54,483 nucleotides of DNA from Pseudorhodoferax aquiterrae (GTDB lineage Bacteria; Pseudomonadota; Gammaproteobacteria; Burkholderiales; Burkholderiaceae_C): positions 1 to 54,483 of the forward strand of contig NZ_BMYK01000035.1 in assembly GCF_014652235.1 (NCBI RefSeq). Direction: 5' to 3'. Under the pieces are notes generated by a model. It saw only the letters and a list, made by a program, of their open reading frames with translations. It had not been told where the DNA came from and did not search any database. Below are positions 7,484 to 53,409 of the stretch, piece by piece (positions within the stretch are counted from its first letter, which is position 1; every line of letters begins with the position of its first letter). The position numbers were made by a program, and so were the translations under genes.

Positions 7484-7527
7484 GGCGGGTTCCTGTTGAA
7501 GTGGGTCGATGCTAGGCAAGATCCTGC

Positions 7528-7562
7528 AATCTCTGAAGTGGTATGTTTTCTCGCTTGAGATT
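7528..7562. promoter_or_regulatory. candidate LysR operator between tarD and its regulator
   Basis: The tarD/lysR intergenic region holds an imperfect inverted repeat: AATCTC-TG-AAG (7528-7538) against CTTGAGATT (7554-7562). The arms pair fully except for two extra bases in the left arm. The location between divergent genes is typical of LysR-type binding sites. The role is inferred. Confidence 0.45.
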
Positions 7563-7577
7563 CCATTCCGAGATGCC

Positions 7578-38147: not shown

Positions 38148-39191
38148 ATGATCCATGACCGCATGCGACGCGCCCGCGTCTTGCGGGGGCTCAGTCTGGA
38201 AGCGCTCGCTCAGCGGCTGGGCGACATCAGCAAGCAGGCGCTGAACAAGTTCGAGAAAGGCGAATCCGTTCCCAACTCGACCCGCGTGCTGCAACTCGCC
38301 CAGGCGCTGGGCGTCAAACCCGAGTACTTCTTCCGCTCCGACACGGTGGCGTTGGCGCCGCTCGAGTTCCGCAAGCTAGCCAAGATGCCGAAGTACCGGC
38401 AGGAGCAGGTCGAGGAGCAGATGCGCGATCACTTGGAGCGCTACATCGCATTGGAACGCTGCTTCGATGCCGCCGACCTGCAGGCGCGGCCCGCCCCTGC
38501 ACAGTCCATCCCTGTGGCCAGCGTCGCAGAAGCCGAGACTGCCGCGCAGCAGTTGCGTGAGCAATGGGCCATTGGCGGTGATGCCATCGCCAATCTGACC
38601 CAGTTGCTCGAAGAGCACGGCATCAAGGTGGCATTGCTCGACGGCCCCACCGATTTCGACGGCGCCTGTGCAGCCACGCAGGACGGCCAGCATGTGCTGA
38701 TCGCCTTGAACGCAACGCGGCCCGGCGAACGCATGCGCTTCACGGCGGCACACGAACTCGGACATTGGATCATGGCGCTACCGCAAGACATGCCCGAGAG
38801 GACCCGGGAATCGTGCTGCCACCGCTTTGCCGGCGCCTTCCTCTATCCAGAGGAACAGGTTCTGCGCGACTTCGGCACCCACCGCCGCTCGCGCGTTCAT
38901 CCGGTCGAGCTGCTCAACGCCAAGCGGCGCTACGGCATCTCGATGCAACTCGCGCTGCGCCGGCTCAAGGACCTCGATCTGGTTGGCGAGCAGACCTACA
39001 CGGCGAGTTGCATCCAGTTCGGCCGCGAAGGCTGGCGCACGTCAGAGCCCGAGCCTCTGCTCGCCGAGCAGCCGCGCCGCTTTGAGTCCTTGGTGTTTTG
39101 GGGGTTGGCTGAGGATCTGTTCAGTCCATCGCGGGCGGCGGAGTTCCTGCAACGGCGCATCGACCAGCTGGAACCGTCATTGCACGCATAG
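38148..39191 (+). CDS. XRE-family HTH fused to ImmA/IrrE metallopeptidase
   Basis: The 347-residue protein has an N-terminal XRE helix-turn-helix (residues 5-60, GLSLEALAQRLGDISKQALNKFEKG) and a C-terminal COG2856 zinc peptidase with HELGH at 202-206 (His202, Glu203, His206) in FTAAHELGHWIM. Proteins of this architecture act as proteolytic regulators or antitoxins, cleaving or binding repressors and toxins. It is followed 12 bases later by a PIN-domain gene, so a toxin-antitoxin or abortive-infection type pair is likely. CGGAGG precedes the ATG by 7 bases. Confidence 0.9.
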   Translation: MIHDRMRRARVLRGLSLEALAQRLGDISKQALNKFEKGESVPNSTRVLQLAQALGVKPEYFFRSDTVALAPLEFRKLAKMPKYRQEQVEEQMRDHLERYIALERCFDAADLQARPAPAQSIPVASVAEAETAAQQLREQWAIGGDAIANLTQLLEEHGIKVALLDGPTDFDGACAATQDGQHVLIALNATRPGERMRFTAAHELGHWIMALPQDMPERTRESCCHRFAGAFLYPEEQVLRDFGTHRRSRVHPVELLNAKRRYGISMQLALRRLKDLDLVGEQTYTASCIQFGREGWRTSEPEPLLAEQPRRFESLVFWGLAEDLFSPSRAAEFLQRRIDQLEPSLHA

Positions 39192-39203
39192 GGCACAGCA
39201 GGC

Positions 39204-39692
39204 ATGGGCCGCGTCTACGTCAGCGACACCAACATCTGGATCGACTTTCGCCACGCGGGTTTGCTGGAGCAGCTGTTCCAGTTGCCGTTTCGCTTGTGCA
39301 GCACCGACTTCGTGCTGCAGGAACTGCACGACATCGAGCACGAGGTGCTGATTGGCCATGGCTTGCTGGTGGAAACGATGGATGGTCCAGCCGTGCAGCG
39401 CCTGTTCGGTTTGATGGCACAACACAACAACAGCTCGCTGGCGGACGTGTCCTGCTATTTGCTGGCACAGGACACAGGTAGACCCTTGTTGACCGGTGAT
39501 GGGCGCCTGCGCAAGCAGGCCATGCGGGATGGCCTGCAGGTGTTTGGCACCCTGTGGCTCCTGGATCAGCTTGTCGCCCACGCCGTCGTCAGCCCTGCGC
39601 GGGCCAGCGAGGGATTGCAGGCCATGCTGGCCCACGGAGCGCGGCTGCCGAGCGCAGACTGTCAGCAGCGGATCCGTACGTGGGATGACTGA
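39204..39692 (+). CDS. PIN-like nuclease, partner of XRE-ImmA
   Basis: The 162-residue protein begins VYVSDTNIWIDF and shows the four acidic PIN residues: Asp8, Glu40 (VLQEL), Asp81 (SLADVSCY) and Asp99 (LLTGDGRL). It should be an RNase, possibly the toxic component of the pair with the upstream HTH-peptidase. The C-terminal extension after residue 130 has no recognised motif. The gene pair is compact and flanked by metabolic genes, as mobile defence or TA modules often are, but I see no integrase or repeats. Confidence 0.83.
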   Translation: MGRVYVSDTNIWIDFRHAGLLEQLFQLPFRLCSTDFVLQELHDIEHEVLIGHGLLVETMDGPAVQRLFGLMAQHNNSSLADVSCYLLAQDTGRPLLTGDGRLRKQAMRDGLQVFGTLWLLDQLVAHAVVSPARASEGLQAMLAHGARLPSADCQQRIRTWDD

Positions 39693-39733
39693 ACCGCTGC
39701 ACGGCGAACTGGGCGAGCGGCAGCCCGTCGCGT

Positions 39734-40288
39734 TCAAGGCGGCAGCCGCCCCACAACCACAAGCCCGCCCCCGGGCGCAGCCCGCACCACGATGCCTTCG
39801 CCCGAGGCCGGGAAGATCCCGGTCAGCGCCGTGATGTTGACCTGGTGCGTGACCACCACCAGCACACCCGGGCCGCGCCAGGCCGCCAGCACGGCGCGTG
39901 CGGCCGCGGTCTGGCGCTCGGACTGGGCCGCATCCTCGTTGAAGAAGGAGTTGAAAGCTGGCGCCTCCTGCACGCGGCCTGGGAAGGCGAGTTCGGCCGT
40001 GTCGCGCGTGCGGCACCACTGGCTGCTCAGCACCTGGCCCACGGCGATGCCACGGGCGCGAAAACGGGCACCGAGTTCCTGCGCCTGGGCGCGGCCGCGC
40101 GCGCTGAGGTTGCGTTGCGTGCCGCAGTCGCCGAGCCGGAACTGCGACGGGTCGCCGGTGCCCGGCGCGTCCGCATGGCGAAACAGCACGATGCCGTCCG
40201 GAGCCAGTGCAGGCCAGGCTTGCGCCAGCGCCGGCAGGCCCGTGATGGCCAGCGCGGCGCCGATGGCGGTGAGATGTCGTCGGTGCAT
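39734..40288 (-). CDS. exported histidine phosphatase family protein
   Basis: The 184-residue protein has a signal peptide (cleavage near ALAQA, residue 24) and a histidine-phosphatase core: the phospho-acceptor His38 in VLFRHADAPG, a second Arg/Cys region SSQWCRTRDTAELAF, and the second catalytic His in VVVTHQVN. It is most like short SixA/Ais-type periplasmic members. ATG 40303 (MGRAAMHRR) is an alternative start. Its substrate is unknown. The 122-base region upstream (40289-40410) separates it divergently from the PEP-mutase-family gene. Confidence 0.85.
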   Translation of the reverse strand: MHRRHLTAIGAALAITGLPALAQAWPALAPDGIVLFRHADAPGTGDPSQFRLGDCGTQRNLSARGRAQAQELGARFRARGIAVGQVLSSQWCRTRDTAELAFPGRVQEAPAFNSFFNEDAAQSERQTAAARAVLAAWRGPGVLVVVTHQVNITALTGIFPASGEGIVVRAAPGGGLVVVGRLPP

Positions 40289-40410
40289 GGCAGCCCTTCC
40301 CATCAAACGACCCAGGCCGGGCCGCGTTCTGCGACCATAGCCGCGCCACGCCAGCCGGCCCGCAAATCCCTGCGCCGCGCCGGCCCACACAGGCCCCAGG
40401 AGACCGTTCC

Positions 40411-41235
40411 ATGCCCCGCAGCACCGCCGAGAAACGCGCCGCCTTCCACGCCCTGCACCGCCAGGGTTGTTTCGTGATTCCCAACCCCTGGGACCGCGGC
40501 AGTGCGCGCTACCTCGAAAGCCTGGGCTTCCAGGCCCTGGCCACCACGAGTTCGGGCCACGCCTGGTCGCAGGCCCGAGCCGACGGCGCCATGCCGCGCG
40601 ACGCCGTGCTCGCCCACCTGCGCGAGATCGTGGCGGCCACCGAGCTGCCCGTGAACGCCGACTTCGAGGACGGCTACGGCGACACACCGCAGCAAGTGGC
40701 CGAGAGCGTGCGCCTGGCCGTGGCCACCGGCGTGGCCGGCCTGTCGATCGAGGACGGGACGGGCGACGCGGCCGACCCGCAGTACCCGCTGGACGTGGCC
40801 GTCGCGCGCCTCGCCGCCGCACGCGCGGCCATCGATGCGGCAGGCGGCGACTCGCTGCTGGTCGGCCGGGCCGAGAACTTCATCGTCGGACGGCCCGACC
40901 TGGACGACACGCTGGCCCGGCTGCGCGCCTATGCCGCGGCCGGCGCCGACTGCCTGTACGCGCCGGGCATCCGCACGCGCGAGCAGATCGCCGCGGTCGT
41001 CGCCGCGGTGGCGCCCAAGCCGGTCAACCTGCTCGTGGGCGGCGCCTCGGATCTCACCATGGCCGAGATCGCCGCGCTGGGCGTGCGCCGCGTCAGCGTG
41101 GGCGGCGGGCTGGCGCGCGCGGCCTGGGGCGGCTTCACGCGCGCCGCCAAGGATCTGGCGCAGCATGGCCGCTTCGACGGCTTCGCGGGCGCTGCCACGG
41201 GCGCCGAGCTGAACGGGCTGTTCGCTCCCGGCTAG
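40411..41235 (+). CDS. isocitrate lyase/PEP mutase family protein
   Basis: This 274-residue TIM-barrel protein has the family's catalytic surface: NPWDRGSARYLESLGF, ATTSSGHAW, the metal-binding NADFEDGYG, and GLSIEDGTGD. The KKCGH catalytic motif of isocitrate lyase is absent, so it belongs to the uncharacterised 'PEP mutase-like' branch that includes oxaloacetate decarboxylases and other C-C or P-C lyases. AGGAGA precedes the ATG. The next gene follows after 78 bases. Confidence 0.87.
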   Translation: MPRSTAEKRAAFHALHRQGCFVIPNPWDRGSARYLESLGFQALATTSSGHAWSQARADGAMPRDAVLAHLREIVAATELPVNADFEDGYGDTPQQVAESVRLAVATGVAGLSIEDGTGDAADPQYPLDVAVARLAAARAAIDAAGGDSLLVGRAENFIVGRPDLDDTLARLRAYAAAGADCLYAPGIRTREQIAAVVAAVAPKPVNLLVGGASDLTMAEIAALGVRRVSVGGGLARAAWGGFTRAAKDLAQHGRFDGFAGAATGAELNGLFAPG

Positions 41236-41313
41236 GAGCGGGGCCGGATTTGTGCCGCCCACGCTCCTGGGCCCCGTTACGATGCGCCGCTCGATCCCCA
41301 AGGAATCCGTACG

Positions 41314-42090
41314 ATGCGCAAGACCCTGACCCTCGCCGCCGCGGCCGTGCTGGCCGCCTCCACCCTTCTCAGTGCCGCCCAGGCCGGCCCGCGGCTGGAC
41401 AAGATCATGGAGAGCAAGACCCTGCGCGTGGGCACGCCGGGCGACTACCGCCCCTTCGCGATCAAGACCGACAGCGGCTACAGCGGCCACGACATCGACC
41501 TCATCGAGGCCATGGCCAGGGAGCTCGGTGCCAAGGTCGAGTACGTGCCGACCAGCTGGCCCAATCTGATGAAGGACATCCAGGCCGACAAGTTCGACGT
41601 GGCCGTGGGCGGCATCACGCGCAACGTGGCGCGGCTGCGCCAGGTCGAGATGCTGCCGGGCTATGCGCCCTTCGGCAAGGTGGCGCTGGTGCGCGCGGCC
41701 GACAAGGACAGGTTCCGCACGCGCGAGAGCCTGAACCAGCCCGGCGTGCGCGTGATCAAGAACCCGGGCGGCACCAACGAGGCCTATGTGCTGCAGAACC
41801 TCACGGCGGCCCAGGTCAGCACGCACGACAAGAACGCCGAGATTCCGGGCCTGATCGCCGAAGGCAAGGGCGACGTGATGATCACCGAGACCTACGAAGC
41901 GCTGCACTACGCGCGCACCGATCCGCGCCTGCACGCGGCCTTCATCGACGCGCCGCTGACGCCCGTGAACACGCTGGGCTTCATGGCACCGACGGACGAT
42001 GCCGACTACCTGCGCGTGCTGCGCTTTGCCTGGGAGCTCGTGGACAGCCGCGGCGGCGTGCGCGAAGCCGCGGCCAAGTGGCTCCGATGA
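41314..42090 (+). CDS. periplasmic PheC-like/amino-acid-binding protein
   Basis: The 258-residue protein has a signal peptide (to about AQA, residue 24) and a type-II periplasmic-binding fold: LRVGTPGDYRPFAIKT, GHDIDLIEAMARELGAK, VEYVPTSWPNLMKDIQADKFDVAVGGIT and NPGGTNEAY. These segments resemble periplasmic cyclohexadienyl dehydratase (PheC), which uses a binding-protein fold to decarboxylate prephenate or dehydrate arogenate, as well as polar amino-acid ABC receptors. No permease gene is adjacent, which favours the enzymatic reading, but I cannot decide. It overlaps the flavin reductase start by 4 bases (ATGA). Confidence 0.82.
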   Translation: MRKTLTLAAAAVLAASTLLSAAQAGPRLDKIMESKTLRVGTPGDYRPFAIKTDSGYSGHDIDLIEAMARELGAKVEYVPTSWPNLMKDIQADKFDVAVGGITRNVARLRQVEMLPGYAPFGKVALVRAADKDRFRTRESLNQPGVRVIKNPGGTNEAYVLQNLTAAQVSTHDKNAEIPGLIAEGKGDVMITETYEALHYARTDPRLHAAFIDAPLTPVNTLGFMAPTDDADYLRVLRFAWELVDSRGGVREAAAKWLR

Positions 42091-42656
42091 AGCCGGTCGC
42101 GCTGCACCACGCCAGCCGCCTGATCAACCACGGGCCCACGGTCCTCGTGACCAGCGCGCACGCCGGGCGCCGCAACGTGATGGCCGCGGCCTGGTCCATG
42201 CCCGTGGAACTCACGCCGCCGCGCATCGCGGTGGTGATCGACAAGAGCACCTTCACGCGCGAGCTGGTCATGGCCAGCGGCGCGTTCGCGCTGTGCATCC
42301 CGGGCGCAGCGCTGGCCGACCTGGTCTACGCCGTGGGCAGCACGAGCGGGCGCGCGGGCGACAAGTTCGCGCGCCATGGCATCGCGGCCGGCAGCGGCCC
42401 GGTGCTGGGCATGCCGGTGCTGGAGCAGGGCTGCGTCGGCTGGCTCGAATGCCGGCTGATCCCCGAGCGCCACACCGAAGAAGCCTACGACACCTGCTTC
42501 GGCGAGGTGGTGGCCGCCGCAGCCGATCCGCGCGTGTTCGCCGACGGGCATTGGTCGTTCCGCGGCGACAACGCCGACCTGCAGACCCTGCACCACCTGG
42601 GTGCCGGGCTGTTCGCGCGCGCCGCGGGCACGGTGCAGGCGCGGGCGCCGCTCTGA
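42087..42656 (+). CDS. flavin reductase-like (flavoredoxin) family protein
   Basis: The 189-residue protein matches the FMN-binding split-barrel flavin reductase family: ASRLINHGPTVLVTSAHAGRRNVMAAAWSMPVELTPPRIAVVID, KSTFTRELVMASGAFALCIPG and AGDKFARHGI. It should bind FMN and pass electrons from NAD(P)H to flavin or another acceptor. It is translationally coupled to the upstream PheC-like gene through ATGA and ends 5 bases from the convergent response regulator gene. Confidence 0.87.
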   Translation: MKPVALHHASRLINHGPTVLVTSAHAGRRNVMAAAWSMPVELTPPRIAVVIDKSTFTRELVMASGAFALCIPGAALADLVYAVGSTSGRAGDKFARHGIAAGSGPVLGMPVLEQGCVGWLECRLIPERHTEEAYDTCFGEVVAAAADPRVFADGHWSFRGDNADLQTLHHLGAGLFARAAGTVQARAPL

Positions 42657-42661
42657 GGCGC

Positions 42662-43639
42662 TCAGCCGGCCCGCTCGATGCGCTCGATGGCCGCGGCCAT
42701 CCAGTCGCGCCGCAGGCTCTCGGGCGCCGGCAAGGCGCCCTGCACCACCAACCAGCGGCCTTCGCCCTGCGGCTGCAGCGTGGCGCTGCCCTCGGTCCAC
42801 AGCAGCCAGGCCAGCCAGGCGGTGCCGGCCGCGGTGACGGGCGCCGCTGTCGGCGCCTCCAGCGGCCAGACCAGCGCGGCACGGTCGCGCACGATGAGCT
42901 TGCCTTCGTGGATCTCCGAGGCACCGGCCAGCGCCTCGTCCAGCACCGCCAGCGGCGGACGCGCGCTGCCCTGGTCGGCGAACCAGCGGCCCCAGGCCGC
43001 CAGCTCGGTGCCGATGGCGATGCTGCGCGCGGTTTCGGCCTGCATCAGGTCGGCGTGGTCGGTGCTGTGCCAGTCGATCGCGGGCGGCCGGCAGCCCAGC
43101 ACCCTGGCCGACTGCAGGAACGCCTCGACGCGCGGCGCATGGTCGGGCCGCACGAAGCCGGCGCAGGCCACCACCAGCTGGGTCACGCGCTCGGCCAGCA
43201 GTTGCTGTTGCTGCACCATGAGCTTTTCGCGCAGCAGCATGTCGCGCTCGCTGCGCAGCGCGGCCAGCTCCAGCGCGTTCTTGAGGTCGGCGCGCAGGCT
43301 CTCCAGGTCCCAGGGCTTGGTGATGTAGCGGTAGATGTGGCCGGAGTTGATGGCCTCGATGGCCTCGCCCAGTTCCGAGTAGGCGGTGGTCAGCATGCGC
43401 ACGATGTTGGGATGGTTGTCGTGCGCGTAGCGCAGCAGCTCGTTGCCGTAGGCGCCGGGCATGCGCTGGTCGGACACCAGCACGGCGATTTCGTCCGCAT
43501 GCTCGGCCAGCATGGCCTTGCCGGCCTCGACCGAGGAGGCCGTGAGGACCGGGGCCAGCGGGGACACGAGGCGCTCGAAGTACTTCAGCGCCATGGTCTC
43601 GTCGTCCACGTACAGGATTTTCTGGGGTTGCTTGCTCAT
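42662..43639 (-). CDS. phcQ: PhcQ-like response regulator
   Basis: The 325-residue protein has an N-terminal receiver domain with the phospho-acceptor Asp57 (VLVSDQRMPG), acidic pair Asp12/Asp13 and the conserved Lys in YITKPWD. After a coiled-coil-like linker (residues about 120-150, rich in Gln and Leu) comes a C-terminal region of about 170 residues with no DNA-binding motif that I recognise. As the last gene of the phcBSRQ-like operon it fits PhcQ, which in Ralstonia relays the quorum signal towards PhcA. Its ATG overlaps the preceding stop by 4 bases. Confidence 0.83.
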   Translation of the reverse strand: MSKQPQKILYVDDETMALKYFERLVSPLAPVLTASSVEAGKAMLAEHADEIAVLVSDQRMPGAYGNELLRYAHDNHPNIVRMLTTAYSELGEAIEAINSGHIYRYITKPWDLESLRADLKNALELAALRSERDMLLREKLMVQQQQLLAERVTQLVVACAGFVRPDHAPRVEAFLQSARVLGCRPPAIDWHSTDHADLMQAETARSIAIGTELAAWGRWFADQGSARPPLAVLDEALAGASEIHEGKLIVRDRAALVWPLEAPTAAPVTAAGTAWLAWLLWTEGSATLQPQGEGRWLVVQGALPAPESLRRDWMAAAIERIERAG

Positions 43640-44802
43640 GTTCTGGCGTCCTCGGTGCTCGGGAAGGTCAGGGTGACGGTGCAGCCCTGTCCGGGTTCGG
43701 AGTGGATGGCGATGCCGCCGCCAACGGCCTGCACGACGCGTCGGCAGAACACCAGGCCCATGCCGTTGCCACCGCTGGCGGCGCGCGTGGTGAGCGGCTC
43801 CAGCGTCAGCCGCGCGAGGATGTCCGGCGCGATGCCGCAGCCGTTGTCGATGAAGCGGATCCAGGCATTGCGCGGCAGTTCCGCCGGCGCAGCCTGGCCG
43901 AACTCGATGCGCAGCCGCGGTCGGGCCACGCCGCGCATGGCGAGCAGCGCGTTCTTGGTCAAGGTGCACAGCACCAGGTACAGCAGGTCGCGCCGGCCGG
44001 GCAGGCGGAAGTCCCGCTGCGGGTCCAGCGCCACCCAATCGCGCTCCTCGCCCTCGAAGGGGTACTCGGTCAACAGCGCGCGGACCAGTGCGCCGGCGTA
44101 CAGCGGCGGCTCCACGGCGCCCGGCAGGGCGTCGCGTGCAGACTGCACGAAGCTGGCCACCAGCGACTGGCAGTACAGCGTGCGCCGTTCAGCCGAGTCG
44201 ATGGCGGCGATCACCTCGCCCGCACGGTGCTCGTCGAAGACCGCGCGGCCTTCGCCCGAGGCCTGGGCCTGGTAGCGGTCGCGCAGCGCCGCCATGTAGC
44301 CGCGCACCGTGCCCAGCGGGGTGTTGAGCTCGTGCGCCAGGAAGCCCAGCGTCTCGCGCATGGCCATGACGCGGCTCTCGTGCAGCGCGCGCTCGCGCGC
44401 GCGGTGGCCGTGCCAGGCCAGCGCCTCGCGCAGTGCCTGGCGCGTGGCGGCTTCCTCCAGCGGCTTCTGCAGGATGCGGAACACCCGCCCTTCGTTGACG
44501 GCGGAGATCGCGAGATCCGTGTCGGCGTAGGCGGTGCACAGCAAGGGCACCAGGTGCCGGTGCTGGCGCTGCAGCTCCTGCAACAGCTCCAGGCCGGTGC
44601 GCTGCGGCATGCGGTAGTCGGTGACGACCACGGCGACGCGGTGGCCGCTGCGGCCCAGCAGTTGCAGTGCCTCGTCGACGCTGGCCACGGTCTCGATGCG
44701 GAACTCGTTCTCGTAGGTGCGGTGGAACCACTTGCGCGCGAGCGCCTCGTCATCGACCACGAGGACGGTGTCTGCATCCGGTTCCATGGGCGCGGCGTGC
44801 AT
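43636..44802 (-). CDS. phcR: PhcR-like receiver-histidine kinase hybrid
   Basis: The 388-residue cytosolic protein has an unusual order: receiver first (phospho-acceptor Asp62 in VVTDYRMP, Lys in LQKPLEE), then a histidine kinase with H-box FLAHELNTPLGTVRGYM and an ATPase domain (N-box TLTKNALLAM, DNGCGIAPD, GNGMGLVFCRRVV). This is the architecture described for Ralstonia PhcR. ATG 44802 or 44787 could start it; 44802 leaves 11 bases after the upstream kinase gene. It would accept phosphate from the PhcS-like kinase and pass the signal on. Confidence 0.86.
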   Translation of the reverse strand: MHAAPMEPDADTVLVVDDEALARKWFHRTYENEFRIETVASVDEALQLLGRSGHRVAVVVTDYRMPQRTGLELLQELQRQHRHLVPLLCTAYADTDLAISAVNEGRVFRILQKPLEEAATRQALREALAWHGHRARERALHESRVMAMRETLGFLAHELNTPLGTVRGYMAALRDRYQAQASGEGRAVFDEHRAGEVIAAIDSAERRTLYCQSLVASFVQSARDALPGAVEPPLYAGALVRALLTEYPFEGEERDWVALDPQRDFRLPGRRDLLYLVLCTLTKNALLAMRGVARPRLRIEFGQAAPAELPRNAWIRFIDNGCGIAPDILARLTLEPLTTRAASGGNGMGLVFCRRVVQAVGGGIAIHSEPGQGCTVTLTFPSTEDART

Positions 44803-44813
44803 GGCGGGCGGTC

Positions 44814-46238
44814 TCAAGCCGGGAGGGCGCCGGCCGGCGCGCCCAGGGGCGTGGGTGGCGGTGTGGCCGCGGGAGCCGCGCCCGGTTCGGCCACGGCATC
44901 GGCCGTGGCCAGCGCCAGGTCGAAGCTGAACTCGGTCCAGGCGCCCTCTTCGCTGGCCACGGTCAGCTGCCCCCCGTGGCGCTGCACGATGGCATAGCAG
45001 ACCGCCAGGCCCAGGCCCAGGCCCTGGCCCACCTCGCGCGTGGTGAAGAAGGGCTCGAACACCCGCTCGAGGTTTTCCGGCGCGATGCCGGTCCCGTTGT
45101 CGCGCACGTGCACGTGCAAGCGTGCGCCCTGGCGCTCGGCCCGCACGCCGATCTGCGGCGCCAGGCCCGGCCGGCGCTGCGCCGCCTTGTGCAGGGCCAG
45201 CGCCGCATTGCCGAGCAGGTTCACGAGCACGCCGATGACGGCCGGCTCGTCGCCCCGCACATGGGTGTCCAGCGGCAGCTGGGTGTCGACGGCCACGCCC
45301 TTGAGTTCGAAGCCGGTGAGCCGCAGCGCCGAGCGCAGCGCTTTCTCGAACAGGAAGATGCGCTCGCTGTCGCCGCCCGGCTTCTGGTAGGCGAAGGTCT
45401 TGAGGTCGGTCACGATGTTCTGCACGCGCAGCATGCCGTCCTTGGCATCGGTCAGGCTTTCCTTGAGGTCGGCGCTGGCGGCCACGGCCGGGTCCATCAG
45501 CGCCATGTTGAGCGCCATCATGCTGTAGTTGACGGGGTTGTTGACCTCGTGCAGCAGCCCGGCCGACAGCGTGCCCAGGGCCGCCATCTTCTCCTGCTGC
45601 ATCATCATGCCCTTGATCTGGGCCAGGGCCTGGTTGGTGCTCAGCAGGGAGGCGTTCTTCTCCGAGACCTCGTGCTGCAGCGCGAACAGACGCATGCGCG
45701 CGTGCTCGTTGTAGAAAGTGCAGCCGGCCGAGATCGCGACCGAGAACAGCAGGAACAGCGTGTTGCCGATCAGCGCCGGCGGCGCCACGAGCGTGCCGGC
45801 GTGGGCCAGGCCGGCCAGGATGTAGGCCGCGCAGGTGAACACACCCAGGCCGACGGATTGCAGAAAGCCGATCGGCATGATGATGCCGGCGGCGTACAGC
45901 GCCAGGCTGAGGCCGAACACGTAGGGCGATTCCGCACCCTGCGTGGTGTAGATCATCCAGGCGATCATGACCTGCGGCAGCACCAGCCAGGCCAGCGTGA
46001 GTTCGCGCACGTACCGGGTCGCATGAGGGCGGTACAGCAAGACCAGCAGCACCAGCAGGGCCACCGTGCACAAGCCCCGCACCACGCCCAGCTGCCAGGC
46101 CTGGGCCGGGTAGAAGGTCAGGTCCAGCGCGACGCCGCCGGCCACCAGTGCCGTGGCGACGGCACAACCGGTGCGGCTGTAGGCCAGGCGGAACTCCGCC
46201 AGCTCGGCCTCGTAGTCGCGGTGCAAGTCCTGCGCCAT
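44814..46238 (-). CDS. phcS: PhcS-like membrane histidine kinase
   Basis: The 474-residue kinase has six hydrophobic segments (residues about 23-172), a coiled linker, an H-box with His230 (GLLHEVNNPVNYS) and an ATPase domain with N-box VLVNLLGNAALAL, DNGTGIAPEN, FEPFFTTR and GLGLGLAVCYAIV. My recollection is that Ralstonia PhcS autophosphorylates at His230, the same position. It should sense the 3-hydroxy fatty-acid methyl ester made by the upstream methyltransferase. The last 35 residues are Pro/Ala-rich. The gene lies 6 bases after the methyltransferase gene. Confidence 0.87.
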   Translation of the reverse strand: MAQDLHRDYEAELAEFRLAYSRTGCAVATALVAGGVALDLTFYPAQAWQLGVVRGLCTVALLVLLVLLYRPHATRYVRELTLAWLVLPQVMIAWMIYTTQGAESPYVFGLSLALYAAGIIMPIGFLQSVGLGVFTCAAYILAGLAHAGTLVAPPALIGNTLFLLFSVAISAGCTFYNEHARMRLFALQHEVSEKNASLLSTNQALAQIKGMMMQQEKMAALGTLSAGLLHEVNNPVNYSMMALNMALMDPAVAASADLKESLTDAKDGMLRVQNIVTDLKTFAYQKPGGDSERIFLFEKALRSALRLTGFELKGVAVDTQLPLDTHVRGDEPAVIGVLVNLLGNAALALHKAAQRRPGLAPQIGVRAERQGARLHVHVRDNGTGIAPENLERVFEPFFTTREVGQGLGLGLAVCYAIVQRHGGQLTVASEEGAWTEFSFDLALATADAVAEPGAAPAATPPPTPLGAPAGALPA

Positions 46239-46244
46239 GGCCGT

Positions 46245-47636
46245 TCAGGCCAGGGCCAGTTGCATGAACACGTTGACCCCGGTGGCGTCGGTCCAGATGC
46301 GTTCGACCTGGGCCGCCTCGGGCGCCAACGCGCGCATGCCGGCCTCGTCGCGGTAGATCAGATGCCATTCCAGCAGGTGTTCCATGACGCCCCTTTCCGG
46401 ATTGCTGCTGTGCACGTTGGTGACCAGCATGCTGCCACCGCTGCGCGTACGGCTGCAAAAGTACTGCAGCAGGCGATGGCAGACCTTGTCGGACAGGTAG
46501 TCGAACAGGCCGGCGCAGTAGACGAAATCAAAGGACTCCTGCGGCGCACCGCGGTCGCTGGAGGCGCGCTTGAGCAGGTTGTGCACCGATTCATGCACGA
46601 GCGTGATCGACACCTGCACACCGCGGCGGCGGCAGGCCTCTTCGATCCGGTCGCGCGTGTAGGCCAGGGTTTCCTCGCTGAAATCCATCAGCGTGAAGGC
46701 CAGGCGGCCCGGGTCGGGGTGGCTGGCGATGAGCCGCTGGATCTCCACGGCAGGGCCGCAGCCAACGTTGAGCACACGCACCGGCCCGTCGCTGCCTGGG
46801 GCCCGCGACAGGGGTGCCAGCGTGTCGACCAGGATGTCGATGCGGTTGCGGTGCGCCCGCGCGACGGCAGCATTCAGGAACAGCGCGTTGATGATCTGGA
46901 AATAGGTGCTGGCGCCGTCGCGCGGGTCCTGCAGCATCTGGTTGACCATCTGGTAGTCGCCCGCATAGCCCAGCGGCTTGGCGAAGGTGCGGTAGACGAA
47001 GGGCGCGCGCAGGATCAGCGGGTGGATCGCCGTCTGCGCGAAAGTGCGGTGGGACGGCTGCAGCGGCTCGGGCACCTCGCGCGACACGTCTTCGAGCCGG
47101 TCGAAGTAATTGCGCGCGCGCTGCATCAGCGGCTCGGCGATCTCGAAGAACACGTCCTTGCGCAGCCGGCCCTCGGCGTCCTTGGGCAGTGTGGCCGACA
47201 TGTCGGCCTGGTCGACCCAGCGCGAGACATCGGACAGGTAGGCCCGCAGTTCGCTGACCGCGACCTGGTAGGACTCCCCGATGTGGAAGCGCTGGTTCCA
47301 CTCGTCGACGAAGGCGCGCGCCTGCTGCGAGAACGAGGCCGGGTCATGGCCCAGCACGGCCAGTTCGTCCCACTCGTCGATCAGCGTGACCGAGACCACC
47401 GCCATCAGCCCGGTGTTGAGCAGGCTCACGACCACGGCCTTGCCGCGGTAGACCGGCCGCTCGCCCGCGCGCACGGTCAGCTCGCTGAGCACCTCGCTGA
47501 CCTGGACGATGGAATAGGGGTTGTAGACCTCCATCACCAGCGAACGCCGCTGGTGGTTGGTCAGCACCCCACGGACGACCTCGCCCTGGCTGTTGCGGAA
47601 GGTGATGACGGCATCGATGGCACGGGGAGACAGCAC
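46245..47636 (-). CDS. phcB: PhcB-like 3-hydroxy fatty acid methyl ester synthase
   Basis: The 463-residue protein has an N-terminal beta-rich domain (residues about 1-95, PilZ-like at low confidence: NHQRRSLVMEVYNP), a helical middle, and a C-terminal SAM-dependent methyltransferase with motif I VRVLNVGCGPAVEIQRL near residue 270 and FDFVYCAGLFDYLSD near residue 370. In Ralstonia, PhcB methylates a 3-hydroxy acid to the volatile signal 3-OH PAME or 3-OH MAME. The start is a GTG; no better start is seen upstream. It heads a four-gene operon with the kinase and two regulators, the exact order phcB-phcS-phcR-phcQ. The 70 bases upstream (47637-47706) separate it from a same-strand SEC-C gene. 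Confidence 0.84.
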   Translation of the reverse strand: MLSPRAIDAVITFRNSQGEVVRGVLTNHQRRSLVMEVYNPYSIVQVSEVLSELTVRAGERPVYRGKAVVVSLLNTGLMAVVSVTLIDEWDELAVLGHDPASFSQQARAFVDEWNQRFHIGESYQVAVSELRAYLSDVSRWVDQADMSATLPKDAEGRLRKDVFFEIAEPLMQRARNYFDRLEDVSREVPEPLQPSHRTFAQTAIHPLILRAPFVYRTFAKPLGYAGDYQMVNQMLQDPRDGASTYFQIINALFLNAAVARAHRNRIDILVDTLAPLSRAPGSDGPVRVLNVGCGPAVEIQRLIASHPDPGRLAFTLMDFSEETLAYTRDRIEEACRRRGVQVSITLVHESVHNLLKRASSDRGAPQESFDFVYCAGLFDYLSDKVCHRLLQYFCSRTRSGGSMLVTNVHSSNPERGVMEHLLEWHLIYRDEAGMRALAPEAAQVERIWTDATGVNVFMQLALA

Positions 47637-47706
47637 GGTGCAGACCTCGGCAGGCGGACGGACGATACAGCGGGCGCTTCAGCGCGCCGGCCACTGGCGG
47701 AAGCGC

Positions 47707-48564
47707 TCAGTTGGCAGCGCCATGGCACTTCTTGAACTTCTTGCCGCTGCCGCAGGGGCAGGGATCGTTGCGGCCCGGCTGCGGCTGGTCGTGGCGCACC
47801 GGGGCCACGCGGGGGCCCAGCGCCAGGCCGGCGGCGCGCAGATCGTAGACGGCCCAGACGGCTTCGCCGAAGGATTCCAGCCGCTCGGCCGACATGCTGG
47901 GCGGGCCTTCCGCGCCCTCGTCGTCCACATAGGCCGACACTTCGGCCGGGCCTTCGTCGTCCTCGCACAGCGCGGCCACGGTGCCCAGGGCCTCGTCCAT
48001 GGTGCGGGCGATGTCTTTCTCGCGGCTGGGAGCCAGCCATTCGTCGGGCCAGCTTTCCACCACCAGCATGAAGCCCAGCGCCCAGAGCTGGGCGAAGGAC
48101 GGCAGCTCGGCCACGGCCTCGGCCAGCGCGGCCTCGTCGGCGTCCGGCAGGCCCAGGGCCTCGGCACGCGCCTTGGGCTCCAGCTGGGCCATGGCACTGC
48201 GCACGTCCAGCACCTGCGGACAGTAGGCCCGTTCGTCGTCCAGGCGCTCGACCTCGGCGTCCAGCGCGCTGGCGATCTCCTGCCAGCGGCGCGCCCACAG
48301 GGTCTCGAACTGCTGGCGCATGGCCGCGTCCGGGAACAGTTCTTCCAGCGGCTTGTCCGATTCGAACAGCACCGGCCAGTAGGCAGCGGGCGCCACCGGG
48401 CTGCGGCAGCACACGAGCGCGGCCAGGAAGCCTTCGCACAACTCCCACTGCGGAGCCTCGACGCCCTGCTCGCGCAGGGTGTCGAGCCAGGCGTCGAGCC
48501 GGTCGAAGTCCTCGGGCTGCAGAGCAGGGGCGGGGGTGGAGAGGTGGGGTGCAGGTGAAGACAT
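47707..48564 (-). CDS. UPF0149/YecA-family protein with SEC-C zinc motif
   Basis: The 285-residue protein has a YecA-type helical domain ([15 protein letters not shown] and [17 protein letters not shown]) and a C-terminal SEC-C metal-binding motif, [18 protein letters not shown]. The motif binds zinc and, in SecA and YecA proteins, contacts ribosomes. An acidic low-complexity stretch ([20 protein letters not shown]) lies between. ATG 48564 is preferred; the frame extends upstream without family-like residues. It precedes phcB on the same strand but need not be in its operon. Confidence 0.88.
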
Positions 48565-48652
48565 GTTGGTACGGGCCGCGCCGCTCCAGCGACGAGCGCC
48601 CGGCAAAAGCGAAATGGAATCGCCGGGTCCCCACGGGACGCAACGCGATCCA

Positions 48653-48671
48653 GCATGCACGTTGCGCATGC
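48653..48671. repeat. 19-bp inverted repeat GCATGC-N7-GCATGC
   Basis: The repeat GCATGC ACGTTGC GCATGC sits directly after the PIN gene stop and upstream of the SEC-C gene. A stem of 6 bp with a 7-base loop could end the PIN/rRNA-methyltransferase transcript or act as an operator; no T-run follows. I see no other feature in the 107-base gap 48565-48671. Confidence 0.35.
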
Positions 48672-49169
48672 TTACATCTGTTGGAAGTGTGCCAGCTTCG
48701 ACCCAGCCTCAACACCTTGCGGGGCCGTGTCTGCATGACGCTTGGTAAGCAACTGTTGCAGAACGTCCACGCCCAGGGGCGCGAGCCTGGCGCGCGTGGC
48801 GAGCACCGCACGGTCCTTGCTCAGCAGCAGGGCGCGGTGCGCGACAGCAAGGTCGATGAAGGGCTGGTCATCGGGGTCGCTGCACCGCACGGCGCAGGCG
48901 GGCACGGCCTCGGTCATCCGGCTCAGGGCATCGAAGGCCGCGAGCGCCGCTTCCGCCGAGCGGCCGTGGGCCTGGCGCCAGGCCAGCAGGTGGGCGTAAT
49001 CGAGCACGCGCGCGAACTCTTCACGCATGGTTGGCAGCACCAGCCAGTGCAGACGGCCCTGTGCCAGCGCCTGCCGCAGCGCGGCGGTGCGGGGGTCGTC
49101 GAACACCAGCAGGTCCAGCGCGACGTTGGTGTCCAGCACCACGGCGCGGCCGGGCTCAGCTGGCGCCAT
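48672..49169 (-). CDS. PIN-domain protein, COG1569-type putative toxin
   Basis: The 165-residue protein matches the 'putative toxin, PIN family' group: [14 protein letters not shown] (Asp13), MREEFARVL (Glu50/51), [15 protein letters not shown] and [10 protein letters not shown] carry the acidic metal ligands. It overlaps the rRNA methyltransferase gene by 14 bases and has no visible antitoxin next to it, so it is either an orphan toxin tolerated in a housekeeping operon or has a domesticated RNase function. Confidence 0.85.
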
Positions 49170-50406
49170 GGCCGTCGTCGATGGTGGGCGGGACCGGGGT
49201 GGCCGCCGGCGTGCCGCGCGCCGAGCCGGCCACCAGCTCGAAGCGGAACAGCCGGCATTCGATCGGGCCGTTCCACATGGGCACGCGGCGCGATTCCTTC
49301 AGGCGCATGCGGCTGGGCAGCTTGGCGTCCGGCGTCAGCACCCAGGCGGTCCAGCCCGCGTAGTGGCGCTTCCAGTGGCTGGCCAGCTGCGGGAAGAAGT
49401 CGCCACCGTCGTCGGTCTGCGCGCTCTCGCGGCCAGGCGCCGGTCCGCGGCCGCCACCTGCCACGCCGGCCACGGCGATGCGTTCTCCGTAGGGCGGATT
49501 GAGCAGCATGGTGCCGGCCTCGGCCGGCGGCATGCGCTGCAGCGCGTCGCCGCCGCGCAGCTGCACGGCCGCGGCGACGCCGGCGCGCTGGGCGTTGCGC
49601 TGCGCGAAATCGACCATGCGGTGGGCCACGTCGCTGCCGAACACGGTGGCCGTGGGCGCGTGCTGGGCGGCCTGGGCCTCCTCGCGCAGCGAGGCCCAGA
49701 CATGGGCCTGGAAGGGCGCCAGCCGCTCGAAACCGAAGCGCCGGTGCAGGCCCGGCGCGATGCCGCAGGCGATCTGCGCGGCCTCGATGGCGATGGTTCC
49801 GCTGCCGCAGCACGGGTCGTACAAGGGGGTCTGGGCGTCCCAGCCGCTGGCCGCGAGCATGGCGGCGGCCAGCGTTTCCTTGAGCGGCGCGTCGCCCTTG
49901 TCCTCGCGCCAGCCGCGCTTGAACAGCGGCTCGCCCGAGCTGTCGATGTACAGCTGCAGCCGGTCGGCGGTCAGGTGGGCGTAGATGCGCACCTGGGGGA
50001 AGCGCGTGTCCACGTCGGGCCGGCTGCCGGTCTTGTCGCGGAAGCGGTCGGCGATGGCGTCCTTGATGCGCAGCGCTGCGAAGTTCAGGCTCTTGAGCGG
50101 GCTGTGCTGGGCCGTGAGCTCGATCTTGAAGCTCTGGCGCGGCGTGAACCACGCCTCCCAGGCGACGTTGGCGGCAATCGCATAGAGGTCCTGCTCCTGG
50201 CGGTAGTCGCCATGGGCCAGTTCGATCAGCACGCGCTGGCACAGCCGGCTGTGCAGGTTCAGCCGCATGGCATCGCGCCAGGAGGCGCTGAGGCGCACGC
50301 CGGCGCGGCGGGCCTGGACCGGGGCGCCGGCGATGCGCGCGGCCTCGTCGGCCAGCATGGCTTCGACACCCGCCGCACAGGGCAGGAACAAGCGCAGGTT
50401 TTGCAT
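49156..50406 (-). CDS. THUMP-domain 23S rRNA (guanine-N2) methyltransferase, RlmL N-half-like
   Basis: The 416-residue protein has an N-terminal ferredoxin-like/THUMP region (residues about 1-160) and a class I SAM methyltransferase with DPCCGSGTIAIEAAQIA near residue 195 and the catalytic NPPYGERI near residue 300. That is the layout of the COG0116 family and of the N-terminal half of E. coli RlmL, which methylates G2445. A Gly-rich insertion (GVAGGGRGPAPGRE) follows the NPPY motif. It starts 3 bases after rpoN ends and likely belongs to the lptA-lptB-rpoN transcript. Confidence 0.88.
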   Translation of the reverse strand: MQNLRLFLPCAAGVEAMLADEAARIAGAPVQARRAGVRLSASWRDAMRLNLHSRLCQRVLIELAHGDYRQEQDLYAIAANVAWEAWFTPRQSFKIELTAQHSPLKSLNFAALRIKDAIADRFRDKTGSRPDVDTRFPQVRIYAHLTADRLQLYIDSSGEPLFKRGWREDKGDAPLKETLAAAMLAASGWDAQTPLYDPCCGSGTIAIEAAQIACGIAPGLHRRFGFERLAPFQAHVWASLREEAQAAQHAPTATVFGSDVAHRMVDFAQRNAQRAGVAAAVQLRGGDALQRMPPAEAGTMLLNPPYGERIAVAGVAGGGRGPAPGRESAQTDDGGDFFPQLASHWKRHYAGWTAWVLTPDAKLPSRMRLKESRRVPMWNGPIECRLFRFELVAGSARGTPAATPVPPTIDDGHGAS

Positions 50407-50409
50407 GGC

Positions 50410-51993
50410 TTACAGCGCTTTGCGCAGGTTTGTTGGCGCGATGCGCAGGGCTTCGCGGTACTTGGCGACGGTGCGGCGTGCGCACTCGATGCCCTGCTCC
50501 TTGAGCATGTCGGACAGCTGGCTGTCCGACAGCGGCTTCTTCGGGTCCTCGGCCGTGACGAACTGCTTGATCAGCGCGCGCACGGCCGTGCTGGACGCGT
50601 TGCCGCCGGTCTCGGTGCCCAGCGAGGAGCCGAAGAAGTACTTGAGCTCAAAGGTGCCGAAGGGCGTGGCCATGTACTTGGCCGTGGTCACGCGGCTGAT
50701 GGTGGATTCGTGCAGGCCGAGTTCGTCGGCGATCTCGCGCAGCACCAGCGGGCGCATGGCCAGTGCACCGTGCGTGAAGAAGTTCTTCTGCCGCTCGACG
50801 ATGGCGTTGGACACGCGCAGGATGGTGTCGAAGCGCTGCTGGATGTTCTTGATGAACCAGCGCGCCTCCTGCAGCCGCTGCTGCAGCGCCGCGGTGTCGG
50901 AGGCCTCGCGGCCGCCGCCGCGGTGCTGCTTGAGCGCATTGGCGTAGATGTCGTGCACGCGCAGGCGCGGCATCACGTCGGCATTGAGCTGGGCGCGGAA
51001 GCGCACGTTGGCGCCGCGCCCGCTCTTGACGACGATGACGTCGGGCACGATGACGTTGCGCTCCACGTCGACGAACTTGCGGCCCGGCTTGGGTTCGAGC
51101 CGCGTGATCAGCGCCAGCGCGGCCTTGATGCCTGCCTCGTTGTCGCCGCACAAGTTGGCCAGGCGGCGCAGGTCGCGCCGCGCCAGCAGGTCCATGGACT
51201 GGCGGCACATGCGCAGCGCGGTGCGCCGCAGCGGGGGCGGCACCTCGTCCTCGGGCAGGGCACGGATCTGCAGCGCCAGGCATTCGCCCAGGTTGCGTGC
51301 GCCCACGCCGGGCGGCTCCAGGTTCTGCAGCAGGCGCAGGGCCACGGTGAAGCGGTGCACGAGTTCCTCGAGCGCCTCGGGATCGTCGCCGGCGAAACCG
51401 GCGGCCAGCTCCTCCAGGCTGTCTTCGAGGTAGCCGTCCTCGTTGAGCGACTCGATCAGGAAGCGCAGCGCCGCCGTGTCCTCCTCCGACAGGCGCAGCG
51501 CCAGCGCCTGGCGGTGCAGGAAGCTGGCCAGCGACTCCTGGCTGCGCGCCAGTTCGGTGGCATCGGCCTCGCCGTCCTCGCCCTGGGTGGCGCCGTTGCG
51601 CGGCAGGGCGTCGCCGCCCCACTCGCCGTCGTCGGGCGCGATGTCGTGGGTGCCGTCGCCCTCCCAATCGTGCTCGTCGGCCTGGCCGGTCAGCGGCGAC
51701 TCGGATTCGATGCGGCTCTCGGCCGGCGCCTCGGTGGCGTAGTCCAGGCCGCTGGACAGCACGGCCTCGGTGTCGCGGTCTTCCTCGCGCACCGGCGTGT
51801 CGGCCTGGGCCAGCCCGAAATCCTCGCCCGGCGCCTCGTCCATGGACTGTTCCAGGAACGGGTTCTCGTCGAGCATCTGCTCGACCTCCTGCGACAGCTC
51901 CAGCGTGGACAGCTGCAGCAGCCGGATCGACTGCTGCAGCTGGGGGGTCAGTGCCAGGTGCTGGGAGACGCGGAGGGAGAGACCTTGCTTCAT
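50410..51993 (-). CDS. rpoN: RNA polymerase sigma-54 factor
   Basis: The 527-residue sigma factor directs RNA polymerase to -24/-12 promoters and needs enhancer-binding ATPases. The Gln/Leu-rich region I (MKQGLSLRVSQHLALTPQLQQ) opens the protein, an acidic region II spans about residues 55-165, and the C-terminal RpoN box ARRTVAKYRE is near residue 505. The gene follows lptB by 17 bases, the standard proteobacterial order. Confidence 0.96.
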   Translation of the reverse strand: MKQGLSLRVSQHLALTPQLQQSIRLLQLSTLELSQEVEQMLDENPFLEQSMDEAPGEDFGLAQADTPVREEDRDTEAVLSSGLDYATEAPAESRIESESPLTGQADEHDWEGDGTHDIAPDDGEWGGDALPRNGATQGEDGEADATELARSQESLASFLHRQALALRLSEEDTAALRFLIESLNEDGYLEDSLEELAAGFAGDDPEALEELVHRFTVALRLLQNLEPPGVGARNLGECLALQIRALPEDEVPPPLRRTALRMCRQSMDLLARRDLRRLANLCGDNEAGIKAALALITRLEPKPGRKFVDVERNVIVPDVIVVKSGRGANVRFRAQLNADVMPRLRVHDIYANALKQHRGGGREASDTAALQQRLQEARWFIKNIQQRFDTILRVSNAIVERQKNFFTHGALAMRPLVLREIADELGLHESTISRVTTAKYMATPFGTFELKYFFGSSLGTETGGNASSTAVRALIKQFVTAEDPKKPLSDSQLSDMLKEQGIECARRTVAKYREALRIAPTNLRKAL

Positions 51994-52010
51994 CGAAACC
52001 GTCGGCTCCC

Positions 52011-52787
52011 CTACATCCGGAAGTGCTCGCCGAGGTAGACCCGGCGCACTTCGGCGTTGTCGACGATCTCGGCGGGCGTGCCCTTGGCCAGCACCCGGCC
52101 CTCGCTGATGATGTAGGCGTGGTCGCAGATGCCCAGGGTCTCGCGCACGTTGTGGTCGGTGATCAGCACGCCGATGCCGCGGCCCTTCAGGAAGCTTACG
52201 ATGCGCTGGATCTCGATCACGGCGATCGGGTCGATGCCGGCGAAGGGCTCGTCCAGCAGGATGAAGCGCGGCTGCGTGGCCAGCGCGCGCGCGATCTCCA
52301 CGCGCCGGCGCTCGCCGCCGGACAAGGCCAGCGCCGAAGAATCGCGCAGATGGTCCACGCGCAGGTCCTGCAACAGGCCGGTCAGGCGTTCCTCGATCTC
52401 CTTGCGGGCAAGCGCCTTGCCCTCGGGCGTGTGCTGCAGTTCCAGCACGGCGCGCACGTTTTCCTCGACCGTCAGCTTGCGGAAGATCGAGGCCTCCTGC
52501 GGCAGGTAGGACAGGCCCAGGCTGGCGCGCCGGTGGATCGGCATGTGCTCGACCGAGGCGCCGTCGATGGCGATGTGGCCACCGTCGGCCCGCACCAGGC
52601 CCACGATCATGTAGAACGAGGTGGTCTTGCCGGCGCCGTTGGGGCCCAGCAGGCCCACCACCTCGCCCTTGTTGACGGTCAGCGAGACGTCGTGCACCAC
52701 CTTGCGGCTGCCATACGACTTCTGCAGCTGGCGCGCGACCAGCCGGCTGCCGCCCGCTTCGCCGAAGGCGCTGTCGGTGGCCGCCAC
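52011..52787 (-). CDS. lptB: LPS export ABC transporter ATP-binding protein LptB
   Basis: The cytoplasmic ATPase powers LptB2FG, which extracts lipopolysaccharide from the inner membrane. Of its 258 residues, Walker A is [13 protein letters not shown], the signature is [15 protein letters not shown] and Walker B is [20 protein letters not shown] and YLGEHFRM are characteristic LptB segments. The GTG at 52787 lies one base after the lptA stop; this leaves an N-terminal extension of about 16 residues relative to E. coli LptB. The longer open frame lies within lptA and is not used. Confidence 0.94.
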
Positions 52788-52788
52788 C

Positions 52789-53409
52789 TCAGTTCTTCTC
52801 CGTGCCGAGCCGGGTGCTGGGCCTGAGCGGTGCGCTCGGCTGGGCCGGCGCCTTGGGCGCGCTCGCCGACGGGGCGGGCGACAGCATGGCGCGCACGCGC
52901 GCGTCGGGATTGGTGCTGCCGGGCTTGGCCGCATCCACGGTGAAGACCTCGGTCACGTTGTTGTAGACGATCACATTGCCCGTCACCTCGTCGTTCATGG
53001 TGCTGCCGACGAAGCGGCGCATCACGGCGCGGCGCGTGAAGATGACCTTGTCGGCCTTGCCGTCGTAGTCGATCACCTCGCCCTGGCCCTCGACGTATTC
53101 GTCCACACCCTCGCGCTTCTCGCGGTAGTAGGCCAGTTCGCCCGGCGCGGCCGTGATGGTGGCGAACTGGTAGCCCTGGGCATCCTTGCGCACTTCCACG
53201 CGCGCGCCACGCGCCAGGATCGTCCCCTTGGTCACGACCACGCGGCCCGTGAACACGTTGACCTGCTTGAGGTCGTCGTAGCGCATGGCATCGGCCTCGA
53301 TGTTCATGGGCTTGTCGCGGTCGGCACGTTCGGCCAGCGCCGGTCCGAGAGACAGGGCAAGGGCCAGGCCGACGAGGAAGGAAGCGGTGGTGGGTTTCAT
53401 GAAAGGCAC
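52789..53409 (-). CDS. lptA: LPS transport periplasmic protein LptA
   Basis: The periplasmic bridge protein carries lipopolysaccharide from LptC to LptD. Of 206 residues the first 26 form a signal peptide (ALA cleavage), and the OstA/LptA beta-jellyroll follows ([32 protein letters not shown]). The C-terminal 45 residues are a low-complexity Pro/Ala/Ser tail. MKPTT at 53400 is an alternative start three codons downstream. lptB starts immediately after its stop. An lptC gene is not present upstream, where dsbA lies instead. Confidence 0.93.

Follow-up and report, generated by a model that had tools for sequence, protein, structure and literature searches.

The stretch analysed here, referred to below as the window, comprises 54,483 nucleotides of the Pseudorhodoferax aquiterrae genome (contig NZ_BMYK01000035.1), and it carries on its minus strand four closely packed genes that an earlier note had identified as a quorum-sensing operon resembling phcB-phcS-phcR-phcQ of Ralstonia. 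The open reading frames (ORFs) have exactly the boundaries claimed for them (Table 1), with a gap of 6 bases between phcB and phcS (46239-46244), a gap of 11 bases between phcS and phcR (44803-44813), and a 4-base overlap of phcR and phcQ (43636-43639). What is new is that a known Phc sensing operon lies in a genome in which its defining output regulator, the LysR-type protein PhcA, was not found.

Table 1. Features of the phc locus and of a second locus in the same genome that may be connected with it (aa, amino acids; SAM, S-adenosylmethionine).
Feature	Position	Strand	Description
phcB	46245..47636	minus	463 aa, GTG start; SAM-dependent methyltransferase, predicted signal synthase
phcS	44814..46238	minus	474 aa; membrane sensor histidine kinase, six hydrophobic peaks, H-box His230
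phcR	43636..44802	minus	388 aa; receiver (D62), then histidine kinase (H157, HATPase)
phcQ	42662..43639	minus	325 aa; receiver (D57) and C-terminal region of ~200 aa without Pfam match in the protein of the window
Interval upstream of phcB	47637..47706	minus	70 bases
Upstream ORF string	47707..52934	minus	SEC-C-like, PIN-like, methyltransferase-like, rpoN-like, lptB-like (names assigned by reading the sequence, without family search); context, outside the system
LqsR/PhcX-family response regulator	G000:C4:459207-460190		328 aa; from a PhcX query search of the window's genome
LuxR-type gene	L136 (G000:C4) 7195-7932	+	Divergent from the lqsR-family gene

Searches with Pfam agreed with the four protein types that had been proposed. 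A methyltransferase domain was detected at residues 288-401 of PhcB, HisKA and HATPase domains in PhcS, a receiver with HisKA and HATPase domains in PhcR, and a receiver only in PhcQ; the HisKA match fell under Pfam's own cut-off in both PhcS and PhcR. The description of PhcS as a six-span kinase with its H-box histidine at residue 230 was also borne out, given that its NH2-terminal hydrophobic peaks number six, from 24-42 to 155-173 (with a seventh peak within the ATPase domain), and that H230 was invariant in 75/75 aligned rows. Similarly invariant were H157, D62, and D319 of PhcR (64/64 rows), D57 and K108 of PhcQ (71/71), and C293, G294, and D318 of PhcB (80/80). The window is included in each of these alignments, from which rows with PhcR reduced to its receiver, rows with a short PhcS, and loci truncated at contig ends were excluded. 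No NCBIfam model naming any of the four proteins was matched, and the matches shown (the best 25 of 76 for PhcS and the best 25 of 85 for PhcR) were all under the curated cut-offs.

The PhcBSRQ-PhcA system of the Ralstonia solanacearum complex, as presented in the relevant sections of the published accounts (PMC8578825, PMC11960443, PMC13320629), resembles the operon in gene order, in domains, in receivers without DNA-binding domains, and in similar protein lengths, those given for PhcB, PhcR, and PhcQ being 464-468, 368-374, and 336-337 amino acids (PMC8578825). It also shares H230 of PhcS, a residue tested experimentally in R. pseudosolanacearum OE1-1 (PMC11960443). It differs in that no PhcA was found in the genome of the window. 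The Phc system described for Cupriavidus (PMC2864759, PMC2842291) has the same gene order, and Cupriavidus PhcB is 59-62% identical to that of the window over nearly the whole length. Judged by these features, the four genes are a genuine member of the PhcBSRQ family, and the identity put forward in the earlier note stands. The genome is also one of Comamonadaceae, as that note had suspected.

A scan of species genomes yielded 203 stretches that encode PhcB relatives, of which the best 80 were kept as loci. Relatives with a PhcB 54-98% identical to that of the window were spread across Burkholderiales and mostly showed the same gene order; the closest (80-98%) were those of Pseudorhodoferax and of a record labelled Variovorax boronicumulans. 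Because the gene order recurs across Burkholderiales, a chance arrangement is excluded. The record labelled Variovorax boronicumulans (L001) encodes a PhcB 98% identical to that of the window, and what is apparently the same genome (G415) was placed in the window's genus, so that the label may be wrong. The window's own genome gave one PhcB match at an E value of 1e-60.

In all 75 loci that reach phcS, this gene follows phcB (its frame is shortened in L049), and phcR follows phcS in 72 of the 80 loci, with PhcR at full length in 63 and reduced to its receiver in nine. The nine (L040, L053, L064, L067, L072, L074, L076, L078, and L079), all Paraburkholderia or Burkholderia records, encode a PhcR of 136 amino acids from which the kinase part is gone, with phcQ as the next gene. 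Three of the 80 loci (L059, L077, and L080) have phcQ directly after phcS, with no phcR frame recovered, and five (L006, L014, L017, L045, and L052) end too early for phcR. A whole open frame for phcQ is present in 70 loci; the remaining 10 end within or before it. Because PhcR is reduced or absent in some loci, we regard PhcB, PhcS, and PhcQ, on this comparison, as the constant core of the module and the PhcR kinase as dispensable, which fits a published account giving PhcQ the main role and PhcR a partial one (PMC8578825). Locus L117 (G456) also has phcQ after phcS without a recovered phcR frame.

Conserved neighbours were considered as a possible output of the module, and none emerged. When ORFs within 10 kb on each side of the 80 loci were clustered, only phcB, phcS, phcR, and phcQ (together with antisense frames over them) joined Comamonadaceae to Cupriavidus or Paraburkholderia; among the 45 largest clusters, which were those listed, the others were lineage-specific strings only, such as the rpoN region. 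PhcB was present in 6/6 searched genomes of the window's genus and in 10/399 sampled Burkholderiales, and is patchy across the order and stable within the genus. In the survey of 299 genomes given below, a fragmented or shortened PhcB or PhcA was counted as present. PhcB was in pieces or shortened in G669 and G699, as was PhcA in G521, G529, G531, and G546 (Cupriavidus- and Ralstonia-type).

The earlier note had placed PhcA outside the window, which is correct as far as the window goes, but the remainder of the circuit was not found elsewhere either: with the C. gilardii gene as query and all 101 candidates scored, the genome contained no PhcA orthologue, its best LysR match showing 32% identity and 115 bits. 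Whole PhcA genes score 484-745 bits and are at least 65% identical wherever found. Cupriavidus PhcA proteins reached 633-745 bits versus 128-131 bits for the next-best LysR of the same genomes, and by this measure the best match in the window's genome is at or below background level. The gene phcA adjoins fur in C. metallidurans and R. solanacearum (PMC2864759), and we found it beside fur in the two Cupriavidus genomes that were read and, in three genomes that were measured, at a distance of 22-27 kb from phcB, whereas no LysR gene adjoins fur in the window's genome. None of 10 LysR proteins of this genome that were tested fell within the PhcA clade of a LysR tree, in which the PhcA rows stood alone on a long branch, joined by one Paraburkholderia row with a support of only 35%. 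The earlier note had counted the lack of any PhcA homologue against a phc assignment; in the sense of an orthologue PhcA is indeed lacking, and the identity of the operon stands regardless.

The same combination was encountered in other genomes. In a set of 16 genomes, the 14 outside Cupriavidus, among them Paraburkholderia xenovorans LB400 (G003) and four members of the window's genus, gave PhcA matches of at most 128 bits, and six of the 14 gave no match at an E value of 1e-30. In family f32, to which Cupriavidus and Paraburkholderia belong, 299 genomes were surveyed; PhcB was found in 67 and PhcA in 57, with only the best 5-7 candidates per genome scored for PhcA. By genus code, PhcB was present in 40 genomes of g101 (which contains Cupriavidus), 16 of g177, nine of g126 (which contains Paraburkholderia), and one each of g162 and g178, and PhcA in 40 of g101, 16 of g177, and one of g162. 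The position of phcX just upstream of phcB marks g177 as Ralstonia-like. All 57 genomes with PhcA carry PhcB, and PhcB occurs without PhcA in 10 (nine of g126 and one of g178). PhcA was found in two of the 399 Burkholderiales, scored to the same depth, both with PhcB. In the genomes tested, PhcA was thus present in Cupriavidus, the Ralstonia-like genus, and one further genus, and the sensing module without PhcA in Comamonadaceae, Paraburkholderia, Oxalobacteraceae, and others.

To place the module among its relatives, we joined PhcB, PhcS, and PhcQ in a quick tree of 45 rows, with the Shimodaira-Hasegawa-like approximate likelihood ratio test (SH-aLRT) as the only support measure and with the root not fixed. 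The window belonged to a clade with 100% support whose 19 rows were mostly from Comamonadaceae and included none known to have PhcA, part of the rows having been tested for it. Paraburkholderia rows, together with G456, were positioned inside the Cupriavidus rows at two places, with 100% support for the groups and 86-100% for the nesting branches. This double nesting is suggestive of two events in which the module passed, without PhcA, from Cupriavidus-like donors to Paraburkholderia. The nested rows are L037, L063, L075, L117, and L118 and L040, L064, and L076. The presence of PhcA requires four changes on the joined tree, whether by gain or by loss. L116 (G422) forms a long branch. A phcB relative (58%) is located at NZ_CP024936.1:432595-433983, on a Paraburkholderia graminis plasmid predicted to be conjugative. 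This was the one record of PhcB on a plasmid, and such a plasmid is a possible vehicle for PhcB transfer.

These observations suggest that sensing and output are separable, given that the module is present genus-wide without PhcA and was seemingly transferred twice into Paraburkholderia without it. The papers cited here treat Phc signalling in terms of a PhcA switch. Our literature search turned up no paper devoted specifically to Phc in the Comamonadaceae, and the absence of PhcA from some genera may already be drawn in Fig. 7b of PMC10653808. The module provides bacteria other than the wilt pathogens for learning how PhcS, PhcR, and PhcQ act on their own.

We consider it probable that the window encodes an intact Phc sensing module with an output other than PhcA, an estimate that applies to the module and its non-PhcA output and leaves aside the identity of that output. 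By analogy with Ralstonia, PhcB would methylate a 3-hydroxy fatty acid to yield a diffusible ester, and PhcS would sense the ester, autophosphorylate on H230, and transfer the phosphoryl group to the PhcQ and PhcR receivers. Signal synthesis, H230 phosphorylation, and the binding and stabilisation of PhcA by PhcQ are described for Ralstonia in the cited sections of PMC8578825, PMC11960443, and PMC13320629. A DNA-binding domain is lacking from both PhcQ and PhcR. In the absence of PhcA, PhcQ and PhcR, or PhcS directly, would have to act on another output, for which the most likely candidate, linked to the module only tentatively, would be an orphan LqsR/PhcX-family regulator with a divergent LuxR-type neighbour (Table 1).

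With PhcX of a Ralstonia-like genome as query, matches at an E value of 1e-10 or better were obtained for 24/24 PhcB-positive genome handles tested, which represent 23 distinct genomes (G009 and G310 being the same); those in Comamonadaceae were weak, at 66-87 bits for the best in each genome. Compared with solved structures, the candidate matched 6sy9 ('Response regulator') with 62 bits over residues 2-210, the next chain scoring 22.7 bits. We take 6sy9 to be Legionella LqsR. A sequence match extending beyond the receiver, our test of membership, was therefore found, and the candidate can be assigned to the LqsR/PhcX family, with its orthology to PhcX only putative. The gene was present in 13/13 PhcB-positive versus 0/8 PhcB-negative Comamonadaceae genomes, a split with a chance of 1 in 203,490 if the genomes were independent, which they are not; by genus code the split is 4 versus 6, or 1 in 210, four genomes without a code being excluded.

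The surroundings of the gene vary. In Hydrogenophaga-type genomes (L152-L155) and in G339 (L150), lqsR is flanked by a histidine kinase gene and by the gene for an alpha-hydroxyketone autoinducer synthase; the synthase matched NF005526 with 506-555 bits (cut-off 428) in L150, L152, and L155, the loci that were scanned. Neither lqsA nor lqsS was found beside lqsR in L136, the stretch of the window's genome (the rest of which was not searched), or in L147, L148, L149, and L151. A LuxR-type gene is divergent from lqsR in the window's genome, L147, and L148, with a GerE domain in L147, where it was scanned. On the same contig as phcB, the LqsR-family gene lies at ~0.7 kb in G477, 15 kb in Cupriavidus G001, and 33-46 kb in Comamonadaceae G005, G010, G011, G016, and G065; the two are on different contigs in the window's genome, its five congeners, G310, and G339. 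In G422 (L116, 5821-6867) an LqsR/PhcX-family gene within ~20 bases after phcQ is likely the fifth gene of the phc operon, and a second copy is located elsewhere in that genome.

The lack of lqsA at the locus of an LqsR-family gene in a Phc-bearing genome is a feature shared with Ralstonia, as described in the part of PMC10653808 that deals with PhcX/LqsR and the Lqs system. The gene in the window's genome differs in belonging to a separate Comamonadaceae clade, in its position apart from phc, and in its LuxR-type neighbour, and Ralstonia-like G477 differs from the window in having phcX upstream of phcB, where the window has other neighbours. It is conceivable, and again no firmer than tentative, that outside Ralstonia and Cupriavidus an LqsR/PhcX-family regulator is the conserved partner of PhcBSRQ, here orphaned by loss of lqsA and lqsS and paired with a LuxR-type protein, PhcA being a later, lineage-specific addition. 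If so, the splicing of two quorum-sensing systems into one would have happened on more than one occasion, and the LqsR link would bear on how PhcX became tied to Phc in Ralstonia.

Several points weigh against an LqsR-family output and, in part, against a non-PhcA output in general. The candidate and PhcX share only 33% identity across 178 amino acids, the Comamonadaceae LqsR clade sits on a long separate branch, 2.3 changes per column from PhcX, and the gene is on a different contig from phc. Its co-occurrence with PhcB is confounded by shared ancestry among few genera. In Hydrogenophaga-type genomes lqsR adjoins lqsA and a kinase gene, that is, its own partners, and the tracking of PhcB by LqsR may reflect lineages that keep both systems; coexistence of the two systems is already reported in a survey of phc and lqs genes across Proteobacteria, which names Hydrogenophaga (PMC10653808). 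Signal and output are both predicted from sequence, the PhcA counts in the 299 and 399 genomes rest on few scored candidates per genome, and a diverged regulator in the role of PhcA may be compatible with the sequences.

Next most likely after the LqsR-family regulator, if still rather improbable, is that PhcQ binds and stabilises another, non-orthologous LysR in place of PhcA. The genome offers 148 matches to the LysR helix-turn-helix domain (150 of 270 candidates scored), PhcQ is reported to bind and stabilise PhcA in Ralstonia (PMC13320629), and both the receiver of PhcQ and the segment that follows show strong conservation in rows from Cupriavidus as well as from PhcA-less loci. However, none of the 10 LysR proteins tested stands out, several group with other LysR families, and one (L091) groups at about 50% with a Cupriavidus LysR other than PhcA. 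That PhcA itself is present and was missed, through an assembly gap or divergence, would be in keeping with an assembly of 94 contigs, but we think it very unlikely, given an assembly completeness of 100%, a PhcA at least 65% identical wherever found, and the lack of an orthologue in the 14 non-Cupriavidus genomes as well as in G065 (3 contigs) and G339.

It is also unlikely that the operon no longer serves quorum sensing, with PhcB methylating another acid and PhcSRQ sensing an internal lipid or other cue. The reported failure to purify 3-hydroxypalmitic acid methyl ester (3-OH PAME) from C. metallidurans, which has the system (PMC2864759), points in this direction, whereas the invariance of the checked residues and the persistent adjacency of sensor and synthase genes (with the shortened frame in L049) argue for retained function. 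A classical complete Phc circuit, as implied by the earlier note, accords with the order and architecture of the operon and is the least credible of the alternatives, no PhcA orthologue having been found in the genome. An intact sensing module with a non-PhcA output is the preferred interpretation.

Structure models were obtained for PhcB and PhcQ from 32-row alignments, with mean predicted local distance difference test (pLDDT) scores of 81 and 90.5, respectively. Foldseek retrieved methyltransferases for PhcB and mainly receiver domains for PhcQ, and the two models gave no new functional clue. The NH2-terminal ~90 residues of PhcB were modelled as strands and had no Pfam match; PilZ, considered for this region, was seen neither in the Pfam results for the 32 members (25 of 27 families listed) nor among the top 50 Foldseek rows. 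An origin of the PhcQ COOH-terminal region as a decayed kinase was not supported: hhalign gave probabilities of 0.2 and 0.4% with the kinase regions of PhcR and PhcS, versus 99.6% for PhcR compared with PhcS, and in Foldseek receiver domains lead, the receiver-kinase LvrB ranking 37 and 44 with a root-mean-square deviation of ~21.

No sigma-70-like promoter was found on either strand in 42300-48900, and no Rfam element reached its gathering score in 39000-52000. Terminator-like sites in 42300-48900 numbered 3 versus 1.8 expected. The ORF string upstream of phcB is partly common to the corresponding regions of Pseudorhodoferax, Rhodoferax, and Polaromonas-type loci.

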